Part shown: positions 54,942-63,999 of the stretch, piece after piece
How positions within the stretch are numbered: position 1 is the stretch's first letter
Layout: every line of letters begins with the position of its first letter
Source: Pseudoalteromonas holothuriae
GTDB taxonomy: Bacteria; Pseudomonadota; Gammaproteobacteria; Enterobacterales; Alteromonadaceae
Direction of reading: 5' to 3'
NCBI RefSeq assembly: GCF_945859825.1
Contig: NZ_CAMAPC010000007.1
Span: 62,001 to 126,000 of the forward strand
Length of the DNA: 64,000 nucleotides
Program-made: the position numbers and the translations under genes
The notes under the pieces: generated by a model
Database searches by the model: none
What the model was told of the DNA's origin: nothing
What the model saw: the letters and a program-made list of their open reading frames with translations, nothing else

Positions 54942-56444
54942 TTAGCCAGCGCGCTGTCGGCATATTGGTCTTAAGAATCGCAACATTGCATTTAAACCAA
55001 CCGACGTACTTTTGACATCTGTACTAGAGGGAAAGGGGCCCCCATGATTCATAGAAGCACACACTTCAACTCCTGTAGGCATTTGATTTTCAATGAGTCG
55101 TCCAACTTTATACTGCAATGCCTCAATAACCACGTTTTGACTTATAAAATCAGACTCTGTACCGTGAATTGACGCGGTTAGCTGCCCATCCAAATTATCT
55201 ACAATTTGTGCCAGCTCAGTATCATTTTCATACGTTACTATCAATGCAGCAGGGCCAAACACTTCTTCATGCAATGAGGTGTTAGCTAAATAGGTTGTAG
55301 CATCAGTACTGAAAAGATGGGCATTCGCATGAAACTCGGCTTGTAATTGCCCATGAGCAATCAAACTGACGCCATACGTTGCTTTTAACCTTTCAATACT
55401 ACACTTAAAACTGTTAACAATATTAGGACTTAGCAAAGTATCTGATTGACTCGCGTTCAACTGCTCTTTTGCAGTCTTGATAAATGCATGATTATTCGAA
55501 GGGATCAACCAAAGGCCTGGACTCGTACAAAACTGGCCATTGCCCATCAGCAACGATTGGCATAATTGCTGAGCAAGTTCACTGCCATGCAGCTCAGCAT
55601 GTCTGGCAAAAATAACCTGCGGATTTATGCTACCCAGTTCGCCATAAAATGGGATTTGTTCACTACGCTTTGAAATTGTTTCCATCAATTTTTGAGCAAC
55701 GGTGAAAGAACCAGTGAAACCAACGGCTTTGATTTGTGAAGCTGCTACTAACTGATGTGAAATATCATAATTTTTAGCTTGTATCATCGAAAATACGCCT
55801 TTGGGCATCTTCGTTTCTTGAATTGCTTTATCGATTGCCTTTGTCATCATCTCACTCGTTGCTGGATGTGCAGTGTGGCTTTTCATAATTACTGGACAAC
55901 CAGCTGCAAGCGCTGAGGCAGTATCACCTCCCAAAGTAGAGAAAGCGTAAGGAAAATTGGATGCTCCAAACACCGCGACTACTCCAACAGGCAAATGGCT
56001 TAGCTGAGTACTCGGTTTCGCCAGTGGTATTCTTTGGGGATCTGCTTGATCATGAACATTTAGATTCAATAAACCATTGTGACTTTGTTCCAATGCTTGC
56101 GCAAATGCACGCAACTGATTAATTGTACGCCCTCGCTCCCCTTGTAATCGTGCGATTGGCAAATTAGTTTCTTCATGAGTGATATCAAGCAAGGCATCAC
56201 CTAGTGCTTCAATCTCCTGTGCAATTGCAAATAAGAATGTTGCCCGCTGTGCAAAGCTTGTTTGTCGATATTCAATAAACGCTTGTGCTGAACTGCTAAG
56301 CGCATCTTCCAGCATCTGTGAAGTTGCCTCATAAATAGGCGTAGTTAAAGACTGATTTTGTCTTGGCGAAAAGCCAAAAAAGACCTGCGTACTATCGCTT
56401 TGTTGCCACTGTCCTGCAATATAACTTGCACCACTAATTTCCAT
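54942..56444 (-). CDS. 2-oxoglutarate semialdehyde dehydrogenase (NADP+)
   Basis: 500 residues, aldehyde dehydrogenase superfamily. The catalytic cysteine is 306 (GNGQFCTSPG), the general base is Glu269 (FYGELGS) and the cofactor motif is VGFTGS near 241-246. The N-terminal ISGASYIAGQW start and the ELGSINPQVIF block are typical of ketoglutarate semialdehyde dehydrogenases of the hydroxyproline/sugar acid branch. It performs the last step, 2-oxoglutarate semialdehyde to 2-oxoglutarate. It is the third gene of the minus-strand hydroxyproline set. Confidence 0.88.
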   Translation of the reverse strand: MEISGASYIAGQWQQSDSTQVFFGFSPRQNQSLTTPIYEATSQMLEDALSSSAQAFIEYRQTSFAQRATFLFAIAQEIEALGDALLDITHEETNLPIARLQGERGRTINQLRAFAQALEQSHNGLLNLNVHDQADPQRIPLAKPSTQLSHLPVGVVAVFGASNFPYAFSTLGGDTASALAAGCPVIMKSHTAHPATSEMMTKAIDKAIQETKMPKGVFSMIQAKNYDISHQLVAASQIKAVGFTGSFTVAQKLMETISKRSEQIPFYGELGSINPQVIFARHAELHGSELAQQLCQSLLMGNGQFCTSPGLWLIPSNNHAFIKTAKEQLNASQSDTLLSPNIVNSFKCSIERLKATYGVSLIAHGQLQAEFHANAHLFSTDATTYLANTSLHEEVFGPAALIVTYENDTELAQIVDNLDGQLTASIHGTESDFISQNVVIEALQYKVGRLIENQMPTGVEVCASMNHGGPFPSSTDVKSTSVGLNAMLRFLRPICRQRAG

Positions 56445-56467
56445 GGTTCGCTCCTATAAATTTCTGT

Positions 56468-57469
56468 TCAAATCACTTGAAAGCCAAATGCATATGGATC
56501 ACTGTCATCCACACAAATATTGCTTGTGCCCGTCACTTTTGACCACCCCCTAATACTGGGTAAAATCGCCGTTTTACCCGCTACTTCCGTTACTGCTTCA
56601 ATACAACCAACGAACTGGCTACCGATATAGCTTTCATGTACAAATTGTTGCCCGACTGCAAGTAAACCTTTGGCATATAACTGTGCCATTCGAGCACTAG
56701 TACCTGTGCCACATGGAGAACGGTCTATCGCTTTATCACCATAAAATACGGCATTTGCTGCACTAGAACTGCTATGTTTTGGTTGGCCTGTCCAAAGCAC
56801 ATGGGATGCACCTTTAACCGTTGCATCTAAAGGGTGAACACACTCTAGAGTTTGATTTACAACCTTGCGAATCTGTGGGCTAAATTTTAAAATGTCACAT
56901 GCACTCCACTTATCGATGCCAGGGAAATTCGTCTGTGGTTCAACAATAATGTAAAAATTACCACCATATGATATATCTACATTCAACAGACCAAGTTCTG
57001 GCACATCAATGATTATATTTTCATAGGCTAAATAAGCGGCTACATTGAATAACTTTACCCATTGGACTTTGTCATCTTGCAGTAAATATTCAACATCGAC
57101 TCGACCTGCAGGTGTATCTAACTTGAGTTTGTGATTATGAGTGGGTTGAATTAGTCCATTTTCAAGGGCAAAAGTAACAGTCCCTATTGTGCCATGGCCA
57201 CACATAGGCAAACTACCTGAAGTCTCAACAAATAGAATACTCGCGTCCCCATCAGCCGTCGTTGGTGGATAAATGAAAGAACCGGACATCATGTCATGTC
57301 CTCTAGGCTCAAACATAAGAGCTTGACGGATCCAGTCATATTCAGACATGAAATGCTGGCGCTTTTCACTCATAGTGTCACCCCGCAAATTGGGGTGACC
57401 ACTGGTGATCAAGCGCACAGGGTTGCCACAAGTATGGCCGTCAATACATGCAAATGTCCCCTTGCGCAT
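56468..57469 (-). CDS. 4-hydroxyproline 2-epimerase
   Basis: 333 residues, proline racemase superfamily. Both catalytic cysteines are present: C90 in PMCGHGTIG and C253 in DRSPCGTGTSA. Two cysteines mean a racemase/epimerase; trans-3-hydroxyproline dehydratases have Thr at the second site. With its neighbours the role is trans-4-hydroxy-L-proline to cis-4-hydroxy-D-proline. It lies between the deaminase and the dehydrogenase, four bases from the former. Confidence 0.92.
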   Translation of the reverse strand: MRKGTFACIDGHTCGNPVRLITSGHPNLRGDTMSEKRQHFMSEYDWIRQALMFEPRGHDMMSGSFIYPPTTADGDASILFVETSGSLPMCGHGTIGTVTFALENGLIQPTHNHKLKLDTPAGRVDVEYLLQDDKVQWVKLFNVAAYLAYENIIIDVPELGLLNVDISYGGNFYIIVEPQTNFPGIDKWSACDILKFSPQIRKVVNQTLECVHPLDATVKGASHVLWTGQPKHSSSSAANAVFYGDKAIDRSPCGTGTSARMAQLYAKGLLAVGQQFVHESYIGSQFVGCIEAVTEVAGKTAILPSIRGWSKVTGTSNICVDDSDPYAFGFQVI

Positions 57470-57473
57470 ATGC

Positions 57474-58385
57474 TTAATCCAAATTAAATTTGCTTAAGTC
57501 GATACGGTTAGACACCGCCTCATCATACAAGCGACTGACCATCTCTTTATCATTGTGCTCCAAACTTAAACGCGGCGCACGAGTTACTTCAGAGCCTCGA
57601 CCTGCTAGTTGTTCTGCATATTTAATACACTGCACTAACGTTGGAATAGTATCTAAGCGCAATAACGGCAAGAACCAACGCCATATTTCTTTTGCTTCTT
57701 CATAGCGACCTTGACGCGCAAGCTCGTAAATCGCGACAGACTCTTTTGGAAATACATTAGTAAGCCCAGAAATCCAGCCTGTAGCACCCAACATCAAGCT
57801 CTCTAGCGCAATATCATCGACACCACCGAAAATAGTGAATCGTTCACCAAAGGCGCTTTGTAACTCTGTGATACGGCGTGTATCTTCTGTTGCTTCTTTT
57901 ACAGCAACAATGTTGTCCTCATTCGCCAGTACTTTCATACCCTCAAGTGATACATCAACGCCATAGGTAATGGGATTGTTGTATATCATCACTGGTAATG
58001 ACATGCTGCGCGCAACTTGTTGATAGTGGTAAATGGCTTCACGTTCAGTTGAACGATAAACCATACCCGGAAGTACCATTAAACCATCAATACCGATTTG
58101 TTCTGCATCTTGGCAAAATTCAACAGCAAATTGAGTTGTTGTTTCAGCCACGCCACTTAACAAAGGGACACGACCTGCGACGACATCTTTAGCCGCTTTT
58201 AACACTTCACGTTTTTCCTCAATACGAAGTGAGCAATTTTCACCCACAGTACCTAACACGATAATGCCATGGACACCCTCGTTAATAAGTGCATCAATCA
58301 TCCCTTTTGTTGTCTCAAAATTGATGCTGCCGTCATTATTAAACTGAGTGGTTACTGCTGGGTAAACCCCTTGCCAATCGATCAT
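57474..58385 (-). CDS. Delta1-pyrroline-4-hydroxy-2-carboxylate deaminase (DHDPS-like)
   Basis: 303 residues of the dihydrodipicolinate synthase/N-acetylneuraminate lyase superfamily. The Schiff-base lysine is K163 (VAVKEATED) and the catalytic tyrosine Y135 (VMIYNNPITYG). In hydroxyproline clusters this family deaminates pyrroline-4-hydroxy-2-carboxylate to 2-oxoglutarate semialdehyde. First gene of the minus-strand set, directly after the palindromic operator at 58429. Confidence 0.9.
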   Translation of the reverse strand: MIDWQGVYPAVTTQFNNDGSINFETTKGMIDALINEGVHGIIVLGTVGENCSLRIEEKREVLKAAKDVVAGRVPLLSGVAETTTQFAVEFCQDAEQIGIDGLMVLPGMVYRSTEREAIYHYQQVARSMSLPVMIYNNPITYGVDVSLEGMKVLANEDNIVAVKEATEDTRRITELQSAFGERFTIFGGVDDIALESLMLGATGWISGLTNVFPKESVAIYELARQGRYEEAKEIWRWFLPLLRLDTIPTLVQCIKYAEQLAGRGSEVTRAPRLSLEHNDKEMVSRLYDEAVSNRIDLSKFNLD

Positions 58386-58428
58386 ATTATTACTTCCTTA
58401 CTGGTTTTTGTGTTTACCATTCTAGGTA

Positions 58429-58442
58429 TATTGTATACAATA
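58429..58442. promoter_or_regulatory. Perfect palindromic operator TATTGTATACAATA
   Basis: A 14-base perfect palindrome in the divergent promoter between the deaminase and dehydrogenase genes, 44 bases before the deaminase ATG. The form is typical of FadR/FCD GntR operators. A one-mismatch relative (ATTGCATACAAT) lies at 1886 next to the only GntR regulator in this window. Confidence 0.65.
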
Positions 58443-58637
58443 ATCAATATGCAAATAAAATAATTATTTTTGTTCATGCTTAAACACTCAACAAAAAACA
58501 TTCAATATATTGTTTTATAAGTGATATATCATTTTTGATATCGCTTAAATAAATACTTTAAACACTGAAAAGTACACATGCAATTTGAACATTTATTGAG
58601 TTAAATATCCCAAAATTTGATGGCGCAGGAAAAGTGC

Positions 58638-59879
58638 ATGATAAAAAACAAACAGAAAATTGCCGTGATCGGCGCAGGTATTATCGGGCTTTGCAATGCA
58701 AAAAAGCTGCAAGATTTAGGCTACCATGTCACCCTATTTGATGATAAAGGCATAGCTGAATGTTGCTCTAAAGGTAATGCCGGCCACTTTGCTACTGAGC
58801 AGGTTTTTCCACTGGCAAATAAAAACTTGTTACCCAAACTACCAAGTATGTTGTTAAACCCTAATAGTGCACTGGCTATCCATTGGCGATACCTGTTTAA
58901 AATACTGCCTTGGTTTGGGCGCTTTGTATTCAACATGCGTAGTAAATCGTTTGATGCACACACCCAAGCAATTAGAGCGCTCAATGAAAATGCCTTATCA
59001 GCGTATGAAGATCTGCTCACTGATAGTGACTATCAATCATTGATCATTAAAAAAGGCTCTTTACTAACTTTCGAGAGAACCAAAAAGGCAGAAATAGAAA
59101 AGATCTATACTCGCTACCAAGAACAGAATATTGCGGTTCGTTGGCTTAGCAAAAAAGAACTGCATAAACTCGAACCAAACCTCAATGAACTGATCACTGA
59201 TGCACTCTACTTTACTGATGTGGGTCACAGCGTGGAACCTCATAAATTATGTCTACATATTTTTGACTTGTTCAAAGCCGGTGGTGGTGAATTTTTACAA
59301 ACAGCTATTAAAACCTTGTCACCTCAAACCGTCATACACGCAACAACTGATGCAGACGAAACGTATCAATTTGATAAAGTAGTTATTTGTACAGGAGCTT
59401 GGAGTAAACCCCTTGCCAAGCAGCTTGGATTTAAAGTACCGTTAGATACTGAACGGGGTTACCATGCAATGCTTAATAAGCACCATATTTTATCTCGCCC
59501 AATTGCATCCGCTGAAAGGCAATTTATTATCACCCCTATGCAGCAAGGTTTGCGTTTGGCAGGAACGGTTGAATTTGCAGGATTACATGCCCCTGAGCAC
59601 ACTCAGCGCGCAACTATGCTACTAGAACACGCAAAAAAGTTACTTCCTGATGTTGAAAAGTGTCAGGTGCAACATACTTGGATGGGTTGCAGGCCATCTT
59701 TACCTGATTCACTGCCTGTGATCAGTTCGCACCCAAATTGTGAAAATATATTTTTCGCGTTTGGCCACCAGCATCTAGGCCTAACTCAAGCAGCTATTAC
59801 AGCAAAATTAATCGCTCAGCTATGTCAAGGCGAGTCACCCTGCCTCGATTTAACCCCATATAGAATTGATAGATTTTAG
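58638..59879 (+). CDS. FAD-dependent D-hydroxyproline dehydrogenase (DadA-like)
   Basis: 413 residues from the ATG at 58638, chosen because AGGA lies eight bases upstream; the frame is open to a TTG at 58617. The N-terminal FAD motif is KIAVIGAGIIGLCNAKKL; the glycine-oxidase-type C-terminal part includes SLPDSLPVISSHPNCEN then FGHQHLGLTQAA. It belongs to the DadA/glycine oxidase family and, in this cluster, should oxidise cis-4-hydroxy-D-proline to the pyrroline acid, passing electrons to the membrane quinone pool or oxygen. The divergent start shares the operator region with the deaminase. Confidence 0.88.
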   Translation: MIKNKQKIAVIGAGIIGLCNAKKLQDLGYHVTLFDDKGIAECCSKGNAGHFATEQVFPLANKNLLPKLPSMLLNPNSALAIHWRYLFKILPWFGRFVFNMRSKSFDAHTQAIRALNENALSAYEDLLTDSDYQSLIIKKGSLLTFERTKKAEIEKIYTRYQEQNIAVRWLSKKELHKLEPNLNELITDALYFTDVGHSVEPHKLCLHIFDLFKAGGGEFLQTAIKTLSPQTVIHATTDADETYQFDKVVICTGAWSKPLAKQLGFKVPLDTERGYHAMLNKHHILSRPIASAERQFIITPMQQGLRLAGTVEFAGLHAPEHTQRATMLLEHAKKLLPDVEKCQVQHTWMGCRPSLPDSLPVISSHPNCENIFFAFGHQHLGLTQAAITAKLIAQLCQGESPCLDLTPYRIDRF

Positions 59880-59887
59880 GAGTCAAC

Positions 59888-61111
59888 ATGACAACACATG
59901 GCATTGGTACACAAACACAACAACAAGCTCTCGATACACTTGGAAATATGAGCGAAAATGTGCAACCTATTAATTATAATGAATATTTACAACGTATTGC
60001 AAACGCACAATGCTATATGCAACAAAATGGTATTGCTGCAATTTACTTAAATGCCGGCACTAATCTAAAGTACTTTACCGGCATGCAATGGTATGCAAGT
60101 GAACGTATGGTTGGCGCTATTTTACCTGCTGTAGGTAACATTGAGTTCATTGCTCCGACATTTGAAATTGGTTCATTGTTAGATTATCAAATCGTTGCAG
60201 GTCCAATAAATGATTGGCAGGAACATCAAAGTCCTTACACACTTTTTGCGCATGTTTTAAAAAAAATGGGGATCGCCGATAATGCAACCATTGGAGTCGA
60301 TGAAAGCACCGCCTTTTTTGTTGTCGATGGTATTCGACAAGCAGCGCCAGCATTGGGGCTTATCAACGCTCAACCTGTAACCGCACATTGTCGAATGCAC
60401 AAGTCAGACAATGAAATCGCCTTAATTCAACGAGCGATGGATATGACTCTAGCGGTACACAAAGCGACAGCAAGCATGCTTTGTGAAGGTATAACCACAA
60501 CAGAAGTTGAAACGTTTATTAATCAGGCTCACCAAAAAGTAGGTGCAACTGGCAACTACTTTTGCATTGTTTTATTTGGTCATGCAAGTTCATTCCCACA
60601 TGGTGTCAAAGAGCCACAAGTACTAAAGCAAGGTGACATAGTGCTGGTTGATACCGGTTGTAAGGTAGAAGGTTATCTGTCTGATATTACCAGAACGTAT
60701 GTGTTTGGCGAAGCCAATGAGCGCCAGCGCACTATTTGGCAGCATGAAAAAAATGCGCAATTGGCCGCTTTTTCAGCCGCTAAAGTAGGTAAAACATGTG
60801 GTGATGTAGATGATGCCGCACGCAGCTATTTAGCATCGCAAGGGCTTGGCCCTGACTATGACTTACCTGGCTGCCCGCACAGAACCGGTCACGGTATTGG
60901 ATTAGATATTCATGAGTGGCCTTATTTAGTCAAAGATAATCCGCAAATACTCTCACCAGGTATGTGTTTTAGCAATGAACCGATGCTAGTAGTACCAAAT
61001 GAGTTTGGGGTTCGCCTTGAAGATCACTTTTACATCACTGAGCAAGGGCCAAAGTGGTTTACTCAGCCAAGTCATAGCCTTGAAGACCCATTTGGGTTAA
61101 ATCAACTTTAA
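59888..61111 (+). CDS. Xaa-Pro peptidase, M24B family
   Basis: 407 residues. A creatinase N-terminal domain (about 45-170, with NAGTNLKYFTGMQW) is followed by a pita-bread domain with the two-metal ligands: Asp in VDTGCKVEGYLSDITRTY, His in PHRTGHGIGLDIHEWP, Glu in CFSNEPMLVV and EDHFYIT. It cleaves X-Pro or X-Hyp bonds, so it can release hydroxyproline from peptides. It follows the dehydrogenase by eight bases (AGGAGTCAAC at its start) and is surely co-transcribed. Confidence 0.93.
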   Translation: MTTHGIGTQTQQQALDTLGNMSENVQPINYNEYLQRIANAQCYMQQNGIAAIYLNAGTNLKYFTGMQWYASERMVGAILPAVGNIEFIAPTFEIGSLLDYQIVAGPINDWQEHQSPYTLFAHVLKKMGIADNATIGVDESTAFFVVDGIRQAAPALGLINAQPVTAHCRMHKSDNEIALIQRAMDMTLAVHKATASMLCEGITTTEVETFINQAHQKVGATGNYFCIVLFGHASSFPHGVKEPQVLKQGDIVLVDTGCKVEGYLSDITRTYVFGEANERQRTIWQHEKNAQLAAFSAAKVGKTCGDVDDAARSYLASQGLGPDYDLPGCPHRTGHGIGLDIHEWPYLVKDNPQILSPGMCFSNEPMLVVPNEFGVRLEDHFYITEQGPKWFTQPSHSLEDPFGLNQL

Positions 61112-61146
61112 TTTCTTTACATGTACACTGCCCAAAATATACAATT

Positions 61147-61166
61147 CATATATAAAACATATATAA
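61147..61166 (+). promoter_or_regulatory. Direct repeat CATATATAA x2 before the ParD-like gene
   Basis: Two exact 9-base units, 11 bases apart, end just before the ribosome binding site AAGGGG. Ribbon-helix-helix proteins such as ParD often bind short spaced repeats in their own promoters, so this could be an autoregulatory operator. Inference only. Confidence 0.4.
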
Positions 61167-61176
61167 GGGGTATACT

Positions 61177-61389
61177 TTGGGTATCGTGAAAATTTCTGAT
61201 GAGTTACACGAAGAATTACGTGCAACATGTCAGGTGATGTCTCGCTCCATAAACTCTCAAGCTGAGTTTTGGATAAAAATGGGCCGTTTAGCTGAACTAA
61301 ACCCTGATAAAACTTTTACTCAGTTAATTCAGGCACAGTTAGCAAAAAAGGCCAAACAACACCCTTCACAAGAGTCCTCGCATGAATGA
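61177..61389 (+). CDS. ParD-like antitoxin-family protein
   Basis: 70 residues. Start is TTG at 61177, preceded by AAGGGG at the right distance; no ATG fits. The N terminus GIVKISDELHEELRATCQVM, followed by RSINSQAEFWIKMG, is a ribbon-helix-helix fold of the ParD-like family (DUF3423), normally paired with a ParE toxin. No ParE gene follows; instead the next gene is methionine aminopeptidase, overlapping by eight bases. Confidence 0.75.
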   Translation: MGIVKISDELHEELRATCQVMSRSINSQAEFWIKMGRLAELNPDKTFTQLIQAQLAKKAKQHPSQESSHE

Positions 61390-62173
61390 CGTTATAATTA
61401 AAACCCCTGAGCAAATCGAATTAATGCAAGAGTCTGGAAGGTTGCTAGCCCAAGTGTTTTTGATGTTAGATGACATTATTAAGCCCGGCATTACAACAAT
61501 GACAGTGAACAACCTAGTTGAGCAATATATTGTTAATGAGCTTAATGCTCGACCCGCGTCTAAAGGGCAATATGGCTACCCGTTTGTGCTTAATAGCTCA
61601 ATAAATGAAGTGGTGTGCCATGGTATGCCTAGTGACTCTGACGTATTAACCGACACAGATATTATTAACTTTGATATCACGTTAGAGAAAAATGGTTTTA
61701 TCGCCGATTCAAGTAAAATGTATATAATGCCAAATGCCAGCAAAGAAGCGAAAAAACTTGTAACAGTAACCCAGCAAGCTATGTGGCAAGCTATAAAACT
61801 TGTTAAACCTGGTGCTCGCCTTGGTGATATAGGTCATATTATTGCCCAGATTGCTCATCAAAATGGTTATAGTATAGTTCGCGAGTATTGCGGACACGGC
61901 ATAGGTGAACAAATGCACGAAGCACCAAACGTGCTGCACTATGGTAAACCCAACACAGGATTAAAATTGCAAGCTGGTATGACATTCACCATTGAGCCCA
62001 TGCTCAATCAAGGTAGTGCAAAGGTCAAAACTAACAAAGATGGTTGGACTGTGGTTACCAAAGATAAGCAATTATCAGCGCAAACTGAACACACTATTTT
62101 AGTTACTAACACGGGTTATGAAGTATTAACGTTGCGAGCAGAAGAAGCAGCTCAATTATCGGCACTATTATAG
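61382..62173 (+). CDS. map: Methionine aminopeptidase, type I
   Basis: 263 residues. Complete metal and catalytic set: His80 (EVVCHGMP), Asp98 and Asp109 (INFDITLEKNGFIADSSKM), His172 (GHGIGEQMHEAP), Glu205 (FTIEPML) and Glu236 (AQTEHTIL). It removes initiator methionine. It overlaps the ParD-like gene by eight bases and is not next to rpsB-tsf, where the housekeeping map usually lies, so it is probably a second, accessory copy. Confidence 0.92.
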   Translation: MNDVIIKTPEQIELMQESGRLLAQVFLMLDDIIKPGITTMTVNNLVEQYIVNELNARPASKGQYGYPFVLNSSINEVVCHGMPSDSDVLTDTDIINFDITLEKNGFIADSSKMYIMPNASKEAKKLVTVTQQAMWQAIKLVKPGARLGDIGHIIAQIAHQNGYSIVREYCGHGIGEQMHEAPNVLHYGKPNTGLKLQAGMTFTIEPMLNQGSAKVKTNKDGWTVVTKDKQLSAQTEHTILVTNTGYEVLTLRAEEAAQLSALL

Positions 62174-62259: not shown

Positions 62260-63999
62260 TTAGAACTTATAGTCAAACTTTAAATAAGCTTGACGACCAA
62301 GTGATGTATGGGTTTTAGCATCTATTCCCATTGAATCTGAAGGCATTTGTGGTGCTTCTTCATTAAACAAGTTTGCAGCCCCTACCGTCAACGTTAAATC
62401 TTTAAAGCCTATGTAACTGACAGTTGCATCGTACGTTGTCCAAGAGTCAACCTCGAACTTATTGCCAGCACTATCTGCTAAGTCATTATACGAATCAATA
62501 AAGTTAATATTTAAAGTGGCTAACCAATCATTATTTGCCCAATCAACACCCGCAGTCCAACGATATTGAGGGTGCTCGTGCTCACCGTTTAAATCTTCAC
62601 GCACTGTAGTTGTATTACCGTTTTCATCACTTTCAAACGACTGTTCTTCAAAGTTTAATGCATAAGTTAAATTGTAGTGAAACTTAAACTCACCCATATC
62701 TTGAGTGTTAAGCGCATAGGCTAAGTTAACATCAAAACCATCTGTCTCACGTCCACCGATATTAACGAATGTGTCATTAATTCTTAAAATACGCCCAATT
62801 GTGCTGCCTTGATTAGGTGCCCGTACAACAAAGTTAGGATCGGTACCACAGCAGTCAACGAGCTTTTGCGCGCCGATTTTTTTGATCAAATCTTCTTGGT
62901 CATAATTCCAATAGTCTACACCAATGCTAAAATCATCCGTTGCTTGCCAAACAACACCTAAGTTATAGTTTTCAGACTCTTCCGGCTGTAGTTTTTTGTT
63001 ACCCGCAACAACTGCTGTATACTCTGTCGGTTCACAATCGGCTTCTGCACCTGTTTGACGACAGCGTTCTTTATCAATAACTGACGGTGACTCATCCGTA
63101 CGACCTAAATGAAGCTGCACTAAAGAAGGTGCTCTAAATGCAGTCCCCCATGAACCACGAAGTACTAGCGAGTCGATGGGTGCCCAACGAAATGCTACTT
63201 TAGGGTCGGTAGTTGTTCCAAAGTCACTATAATCTTCGTGACGTATCGCCAGTTGCAGCTCTAAAGTATCAAGGACAGGAACACTAAACTCAGCAAATAC
63301 CGCAGTGTTATCTCTGTCACCATTGGCTTGAGTTGCCTCTGTACCAAAAATTTCGCCTCTTAAGTATTGCGCATCAGGGTTATCTTCAATTTTCTCGCGA
63401 CGTGATTCAAAACCAAATGCTGCAGACACATAGCCTGCACCCAGTTCAAATAGTTCACCAGAGACCGTGCCATCTAAAGACTGCATGGTTGATGAACCGT
63501 AACGTGTTGTGGTGGTCTCAAAGTACGCTAAACCTTGAGCTGTATTTGTACTTGGTTCAAACGGGTTCCATAAGCCCATATCAATGGCTTCTTGCGCTAA
63601 ACGCTTATTCGGGAACCCATCAAAGCCTTTCTCAACCGCACTTGAGCGAATTGTTGAAAAAGCAACTTCCCAGTCCCAATCTTTATAGTTACCACGTGCG
63701 CCAAGCACTGCTCGGTAATATTCTGAATCTACATCTTTTTTACGATTGCCAATATCAACTGTACGACGGCGCATGGAAATATCGACACCATGTAAAAAGT
63801 GATTAGGATCTGATGCTAACGGATGGTTTGGGTTGTCACCAAGCATTGTGAGTTCAGTAAAACTTGGACTACCTGCACCTTGAATAAATGTTGATGCATG
63901 CTGCGCCGAAAATTCAGCAAATCCTTCTACATCATCAGAGATTTCCTGAACCCCATTGTAGCTAAAGCTAAATCGCTCTGTTGAAGGTATTAAAGACAT
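62260..63999 (-). CDS. TonB-dependent receptor, C-terminal part (5' end beyond the window)
   Basis: The frame is open to the right edge; what is seen is 579 residues, most of the barrel of a large TonB-dependent receptor, ending TSLGRQAYLKFDYKF with a C-terminal Phe. The region with LGARGNYKDWDWEVAFSTIR and the RWAPIDSLVLRGSWGTAFRA motif is typical of big receptors in Alteromonadales that import oligomers such as peptides or saccharides. The plug and signal are missing. Its position next to hydroxyproline genes suggests collagen peptides as a possible ligand, which is speculation. Confidence 0.85.
   Translation of the reverse strand: MSLIPSTERFSFSYNGVQEISDDVEGFAEFSAQHASTFIQGAGSPSFTELTMLGDNPNHPLASDPNHFLHGVDISMRRRTVDIGNRKKDVDSEYYRAVLGARGNYKDWDWEVAFSTIRSSAVEKGFDGFPNKRLAQEAIDMGLWNPFEPSTNTAQGLAYFETTTTRYGSSTMQSLDGTVSGELFELGAGYVSAAFGFESRREKIEDNPDAQYLRGEIFGTEATQANGDRDNTAVFAEFSVPVLDTLELQLAIRHEDYSDFGTTTDPKVAFRWAPIDSLVLRGSWGTAFRAPSLVQLHLGRTDESPSVIDKERCRQTGAEADCEPTEYTAVVAGNKKLQPEESENYNLGVVWQATDDFSIGVDYWNYDQEDLIKKIGAQKLVDCCGTDPNFVVRAPNQGSTIGRILRINDTFVNIGGRETDGFDVNLAYALNTQDMGEFKFHYNLTYALNFEEQSFESDENGNTTTVREDLNGEHEHPQYRWTAGVDWANNDWLATLNINFIDSYNDLADSAGNKFEVDSWTTYDATVSYIGFKDLTLTVGAANLFNEEAPQMPSDSMGIDAKTHTSLGRQAYLKFDYKF

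Follow-up and report, generated by a model that had tools for sequence, protein, structure and literature searches.

Why does a gene of an antitoxin family stand directly before a gene for methionine aminopeptidase (MetAP)? Protein maturation almost universally includes removal of the first methionine, and the enzyme responsible is a drug target; to our knowledge, bacterial MetAP is mostly treated as unregulated housekeeping. The question arises near the end of a 64,000-nucleotide stretch of the Pseudoalteromonas holothuriae genome (contig NZ_CAMAPC010000007.1 of RefSeq assembly GCF_945859825.1), which we call the window. Our answer, which we consider likely, is that the pair constitutes an autorepressed operon encoding a spare MetAP, combining repression, derepression, coupled synthesis and a supplement to the housekeeping enzyme.

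The first gene (positions 61177–61389, plus strand) encodes a 70-residue protein with a Met-Gly N-terminus. Its assignment as ParD-like, made in a preliminary description of the locus, was borne out: it matches PF11903 (ParD_like) with 71.7 bits against a curated cut-off of 23, and it is the single PF11903 match in the genome (G000, 5.18 Mb). The TTG start and the ribosome binding site AAGGGG (61165–61170, plus strand, 6 nt 5′ of the TTG) are also as described, and homology backs the start: in 149 of 150 linked relatives the corresponding codon is ATG, GTG or TTG. The second gene (61382–62173, plus strand) encodes a type I methionine aminopeptidase (MAP) of 263 residues, which matches TIGR00500 with 295 bits against a cut-off of 171 and has a Peptidase_M24 match in Pfam as well. 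The eight bases that the genes were said to share are 61382–61389, and this overlap suggests that translation of MAP is coupled to that of the ParD-like gene. Two MAPs exceed the TIGR00500 cut-off in this genome, the other one lying on contig C17, and we refer to the MAP in the window as accessory. No ParE gene follows the pair: the ParD-like gene has a TIGR00500 MetAP as its neighbour where a known toxin family might be looked for, and the next long frame (62260–63999, minus strand) resembles a TonB-dependent receptor, scores under the curated cut-offs and continues past the end of the window.

How often the two genes keep company, a point left for checking in the preliminary description, can now be counted, and the pair occurs in many marine and host-associated bacteria. 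Among 142 distinct close ParD-like relatives, all found from the ParD-like side with MAP unused, MAP lies directly downstream in 135 and divergently upstream in five, and is interrupted or a remnant in two. A larger count, 145 plus five of 152, takes in loci fetched through MAP; the linkage figure is 135 plus five of 142. The ParD-like and MAP genes overlap in 110 of the 135 tandem loci, as judged by extrapolated match coordinates, and in 133 the MAP matches at least 230 of 263 residues in one frame. The MAP frames of the other two (L117 and L118, from a Methylophaga MAG and an Alteromonadaceae MAG) are split, and are pseudogenes or assembly errors. The interrupted MAP belongs to a genome of the same genus (L043 or L264, in G324); the interruption is apparently an insert, and the ParD-like gene and the candidate operator described below are intact. 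The remnant (L003 or L243, in G052) spans 48 residues just downstream of a ParD-like gene that is likewise kept with its operator; it matches the collected MAPs by tblastn with an E-value of 1.5e-14 and stops, by eye, at an inverted repeat resembling a small mobile element.

An alignment of 11 relatives, used to scan species genomes, returned at least 566 encoded ParD-like relatives. For the best 80 of these, MAP follows directly on the same strand in 76 and lies on the opposite strand in four, all Rhodobacterales. The holders among the best 80 include the gammaproteobacteria Pseudoalteromonas, Marinomonas, Vibrio, Shewanella, Photorhabdus, Providencia, Morganella and Marinobacter and the alphaproteobacteria Sphingomonas, Pseudovibrio, Phyllobacterium and Roseobacter. 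Among the matches listed, the top-ranking named ones are Pseudoalteromonas; scans of the own genus and of named genomes lean towards near relatives. Sixty genomes of the genus, including the one studied here, contain the ParD-like gene and the second MAP together in 37 cases and neither in 23. In these 37 the two genes invariably share contig and strand; one of the MAPs is the interrupted one of G324. A housekeeping-type MAP, 49–54% identical to the accessory one, is present in all 60 (as a partial match only in G296).

Wider samples were approached from the MAP side. A MAP match at an E-value of 1e-90 was found in 36 of 398 phylum-wide genomes; one of these (G458, 54% identical) looks canonical, and a ParD-like gene adjoins MAP in 34 of the other 35. 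Among 198 genomes of one family, an accessory-type MAP is present in 17, 15 of which have the ParD-like partner. Across the two samples, MAP is without a cognate ParD-like partner in 2 of 50 genomes (G598 and G815), each having an open MAP frame with, by eye, Q62, N70 and M177. G598 has no PF11903 match at all and still carries an operator-like site upstream (one mismatch); the only PF11903 match in G815 is of another type and is followed by a frame with an NFY motif.

Is the accessory MAP a working enzyme? All 132 tandem MAPs have the metal ligands D97, D108 and E235, together with H79, and 131 of them have H171, as do 131 for E204; the ligands are also kept in all five divergent MAPs. Family score and the five ligands D97, D108, H171, E204 and E235 together place the protein among the type I MetAPs. 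In a quick tree of 180 sequences (SH-aLRT support only; the interrupted MAP of L043, which is outside the residue counts too, and frames shorter than 200 residues were excluded), the linked MAPs fall in three places: clade I, with 117 tandem sequences including that of the window (support 100), clade II, with 15 tandem sequences (support 98), and clade III, with the five divergent sequences (support 100). The 43 unlinked MAPs, mostly of housekeeping type, fall among and beside clades II and III.

The methionine pocket sets clade I apart. According to Table 2 of PMC10724148, the P1 subsite consists of Tyr62, Cys70 and Phe177, and P1′ includes Met206 and Gln233. Clade I resembles the E. coli and other housekeeping type I MetAPs in its TIGR00500 match, in all metal ligands and at P1′ (Met206 in 116 of 117, Gln233 in 117 of 117) but differs at P1, where Tyr, Cys and Phe give way to Gln, Asn and Met. 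Position 62 is Q in 117 of 117 clade I sequences and Y in 43 of 43 unlinked MAPs; position 70 is N in 117 of 117 and C in 43 of 43; position 177 is M in 116 of 117 (the remaining one is X) and F in 42 of 43. Clades II and III have Tyr62 in 20 of 20 sequences and Cys70 in 17 of 20. The canonical S1 pocket is not a criterion of TIGR00500, yet its absence from clade I is a real difference. Mutation of the active-site cysteine reduces activity according to work cited in PMC12028322, where that cysteine is proposed as an inhibitor target. With their ligands intact, the clade I MAPs are probably active enzymes with an altered methionine pocket; the change may serve resistance to oxidation or inhibitors, or the removal of a different first residue such as oxidised methionine. 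Should the pair be the operon that we propose, the enzyme that it supplies might differ in its inhibitor profile, cysteine 70, the target considered in PMC12028322, being absent from clade I.

What, then, does the ParD-like protein do? In an AlphaFold2 model of the monomer, with a pLDDT of 77.7, three helices follow an N-terminus that is extended and forms no strand. The nearest solved structures are PutA, AtaR, KacA, AmrZ, Arc and CopG, most of the top ones being ribbon-helix-helix (RHH) proteins. The best match is the PutA domain 2rbf, with a Z-score of 5.3 (under 8) and an rmsd of 0.9 over 42 residues; residues 1–42 of the model align with PutA 5–46, and Lys5 falls on PutA Lys9, a DNA-contacting residue. 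Foldseek E-values are 3.6 or worse and all are matches of small domains. Together with the PF11903 match, the model and its structural neighbours make the protein probably one of RHH type. Its predicted fold is common to Arc, CopG, AmrZ and the DNA-binding domain of PutA, from which the present case differs in that a MetAP would be controlled and in that no structural match is significant by E-value. Among the partners of clade I MAPs, identity is 75% in residues 1–43 and 29% in residues 44–62; judged by these figures, the putative DNA-binding part is what selection keeps.

The family to which the protein belongs also has members of another kind. A profile of the MAP-linked sequences splits close from distant PF11903 proteins, with an E-value gap from 3e-24 to 2e-14. 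None of 47 distant proteins has an adjacent MAP. Instead, 40 of the 47 genes precede a frame with the NFY motif of ParE-like toxins, and all eight downstream proteins that were put to Pfam are PF15781 ParE-like toxins; the remaining seven of the 47 lack an NFY motif in the available downstream stretch, which for at least one of them (L298) ends with the contig. These PF11903/PF15781 pairs are type II toxin–antitoxin modules that share with our pair the antitoxin family, the adjacent and often overlapping genes and the ParD-like gene in first place. They differ in the partner, which is a ParE-like toxin there and an aminopeptidase here. The Met-Gly-Ile-Val N-terminus of the MAP-linked protein is, moreover, one or two residues shorter than that of most distant members.

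The reading that we weighed first is that of a toxin–antitoxin module: unrestrained MetAP would be harmful, and the ParD-like protein would neutralize it by binding and would autoregulate the module. The preliminary description had offered such a module, with MetAP as effector, as one of two possibilities. PF11903 is named as an antitoxin family, most distant members do precede ParE-like toxins, and gene order, overlap and operator resemble a type II module. The pair also has many different neighbourhoods (154 frames flanking 80 loci fall into 100 clusters), and ParD-like relatives occur on 171 plasmid records, 98 of them from Pantoea; the one Pantoea plasmid that we examined (L223) has a tandem pair with a clade II MAP. 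Against it stands, first, the type II rule that the toxin is never found without its antitoxin: a MAP of clade I type stands alone in G598 and G815. Second, the C-terminal tail, the part by which type II antitoxins neutralize the toxin, is the weakly conserved part of the protein, although antitoxin tails may diverge too. Third, the five Rhodobacterales pairs are divergent and not co-transcribed. Finally, overproduction of MetAP is tolerated in E. coli. Standalone MAPs, divergent pairs and the poorly kept tail together make a toxin–antitoxin module very unlikely.

The DNA before the ParD-like gene carries a candidate operator (61138–61163) of three TATA-centred boxes 11 bp apart, TATACAATTCATATATAAAACATATA, and a further TATA lies beyond these boxes at 61171–61174. 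The preliminary description had recognized a smaller part of this array, a 9-base direct repeat ending just before the ribosome binding site. The repeat, CATATATAA, is indeed present twice (61147–61155 and 61158–61166, plus strand, copies 11 bases apart), but it runs into that site, the final two bases of the second copy being the AA of AAGGGG. A candidate −10 hexamer, TACAAT (61140–61145, plus strand), falls within the first operator box, and a candidate −35 hexamer, TTTACA, lies at 61116–61121 on the same strand. Both are matches to the promoter consensus, in a region with two promoter-like sites against a mean of 4.3 in shuffles. Among the relatives, −35-like hexamers with at most two mismatches are found at this distance in 64 of 142, and in 25 of 142 shuffled flanks.

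The consensus 5′ of the ParD-like starts of the close relatives is TATACGATTCATATACGTTTCATATA, with TATA-centred boxes every 11 bp; a spacing of one DNA turn suits the operators of RHH proteins. Two boxes with at most one mismatch occur within 100 bp upstream of 142 of 152 close relatives (a set that takes in loci fetched through MAP), in 1 of 152 shuffled sequences and before 0 of 46 distant PF11903 genes, which sets the latter apart from the MAP-linked genes. This two-box pattern was derived from the same sequences in which it was counted, whereas the distant-gene control and the following count of spacings were not: pairs of TATA words at a distance of 11 number 259 among the 152 close relatives, against one among the 46 distant ones and an average of 1.8 in shuffles of the 152. 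Moreover, the five divergent Rhodobacterales loci have the operator inside the 168–178 bp that separate the two starts (0 mismatches in four loci, two in the fifth), as would be expected for a regulator and its target gene. A DNA site conserved in this manner suggests that the ParD-like protein switches the MAP gene on and off.

We also considered a regulon beyond the operon. In the 5.18-Mb genome the operator pattern without mismatch occurs only here, and with one mismatch it is absent elsewhere; allowing up to three mismatches gives 42 sites against 45 for the reversed pattern, which is no excess. We set this candidate aside.

The mechanism that we favour, an autorepressed operon for an accessory MetAP, would run as follows. 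A dimer of the ParD-like protein, predicted to be of RHH type, would bind the TATA boxes that recur every 11 bp across the −10 region and silence its own promoter; that it is a repressor rather than an activator is suggested by analogy. Once repression is lifted, the accessory MetAP would be made through translational coupling and would supplement or replace the housekeeping MetAP. Since the protein is a bare RHH-type domain with no sensor domain, induction would most likely come from proteolytic loss of the repressor or from some change to its N-terminus. A regulated accessory aminopeptidase was the other possibility raised in the preliminary description, and on sequence grounds it is well supported by the conserved pair, the operator in the promoter, the intact catalytic residues and the MAP elsewhere in the genome. 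If it holds, many bacteria control their MetAP capacity through a dedicated repressor–MetAP operon, and an antitoxin family has apparently been reused to regulate a metabolic enzyme. 'ParD-like' genes beside map should accordingly not be scored as toxin–antitoxin loci without a test.

Could the ParD-like gene simply be a relic antitoxin gene that sits beside MAP by chance or hitch-hiking and has no role there? The family name speaks for this and nothing further. A relic should see its gene and operator decay while MAP stays; the opposite is seen, with MAP alone in 2 of 50 genomes, and pair, start codon, Gly2 and operator are conserved across Gamma- and Alphaproteobacteria. We give this explanation next to no credence.

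Could the conserved second residue point to a more specific form of control? Gly occupies position 2 in 141 of 142 MAP-linked ParD-like proteins, with all four Gly codons in use, and Gly follows the start codon in 149 of 150 linked relatives when loci fetched through MAP are included. One MAP-linked protein (L070, from Shewanella surugensis) begins Met-Glu; another (L129) has no start codon in frame where one would be expected, probably because of an indel, and was counted as is. MetAP should find an ideal substrate in the sequence Met-Gly-Ile-Val-Lys, which is also the stretch likely to form the DNA-binding strand, so the repressor could itself be the sensor of MetAP activity. While MetAP works, Met1 would be removed and the processed repressor would occupy the operator. 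If MetAP were inhibited, oxidised or unable to keep pace, newly made repressor would retain Met1 at the DNA-facing end of the strand and bind poorly; the operon would then come on and provide a reserve MetAP, which in the main clade has a pocket without Cys70. Such a repressor would be matched to MetAP activity and not to one particular MAP protein, which would agree with the divergent pairs of the Alphaproteobacteria, whose MAP is of a different type with a canonical pocket. The near-invariant Gly2 favours the idea, as do the short N-terminus, which would open the DNA-binding strand, and the partnership with MAPs whose pockets differ in type. The Met-Glu exception does not, and a start of Met and a small residue is shared by 46 of 47 distant PF11903 proteins (starts were chosen by script and are wrong by one or two residues in a few). 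A cleavable start is thus no signature of MAP linkage, for which we had considered Met-Gly, and a repressor that reports MetAP activity through its own N-terminus strikes us as unlikely.

A second variant has the two proteins touch without toxicity. MAP would act as a co-repressor or anti-repressor, and operon output would depend on the ratio of the two proteins, much as in conditional cooperativity. Tight coupling and gene overlap are consistent with direct contact, as is the presence of 117 of 132 tandem MAPs in one well-supported clade with a fixed change of pocket. Three observations weigh on the other side, none of them decisive: the tail is poorly conserved, divergent pairs exist, and clade III, which starred branches of the quick tree group with alphaproteobacterial MAPs, has partners that share 75% identity with the clade I partners in the repressor core. 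The quick tree had hinted at repeated exchange of several independent MAP lineages, and AU tests do not bear this out. A constraint that holds clades I and II together improves on the free tree (p 0.97), and a single group of all linked MAPs is not rejected against the free quick tree (p 0.27). That a single origin of the linked MAPs is not rejected speaks for contact, and the doubt over lineage exchange speaks against the repressor as a sensor of activity. The AU results consequently raise direct contact and the toxin–antitoxin module slightly, and lower slightly both the autorepressed operon and the sensing of MetAP activity. Contact between the proteins is, on balance, rather unlikely.

One of the closest known parallels to an autorepressed accessory MetAP is Bacillus subtilis YflG, a second, non-essential type I MetAP besides the housekeeping one, whose promoter is weaker than the map promoter by a factor of 50 to 100 and for which YvoA is a possible weak repressor (PMC1266368). 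The passages on YflG in that paper describe no RHH partner, whereas here a dedicated neighbour is the putative regulator, and a changed S1 pocket distinguishes the enzyme of clade I. The open-access literature that we searched, a scope outside which most subscription papers fall, gave us no description of a ParD-like/MAP pair, and the view that the pair is undescribed holds to that extent; looking there for the pocket and for feedback brought up no recognizable paper on how a bacterial MetAP is regulated. In the portions concerned, PMC3948609 has a MetAP and an RHH-RelE pair far apart on one fosmid, and PMC13129497, PMC12654330 and PMC6504116 mention ParD-like proteins without any aminopeptidase. 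Public plasmid annotation already lists 'ParD-like family protein' and 'map' side by side. The genes are thus annotated and, as far as we have seen, the pair itself is not discussed.

Two further associations were considered for the pair. A role in anti-phage defence was dropped: neither the ParD-like protein nor MAP has a PADLOC match at an E-value of 1, and the ParD-like protein has no match in 50,697 phage records at an E-value of 0.01. Each of the two proteins has one match in PHROG, with function unassigned there. The other association concerns the genes upstream in the window (54942–61111), which encode an aldehyde dehydrogenase, a 4-hydroxyproline epimerase (NF010578, 559 bits against a cut-off of 376), a DapA-family lyase scoring slightly below the dapA cut-off, an FAD enzyme resembling D-amino-acid dehydrogenase and an M24 protein resembling Xaa-Pro peptidases. 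This cluster probably serves the use of hydroxyproline. Relatives of the pair sit in many other neighbourhoods, and we rejected a functional link: the cluster is probably an incidental neighbour.
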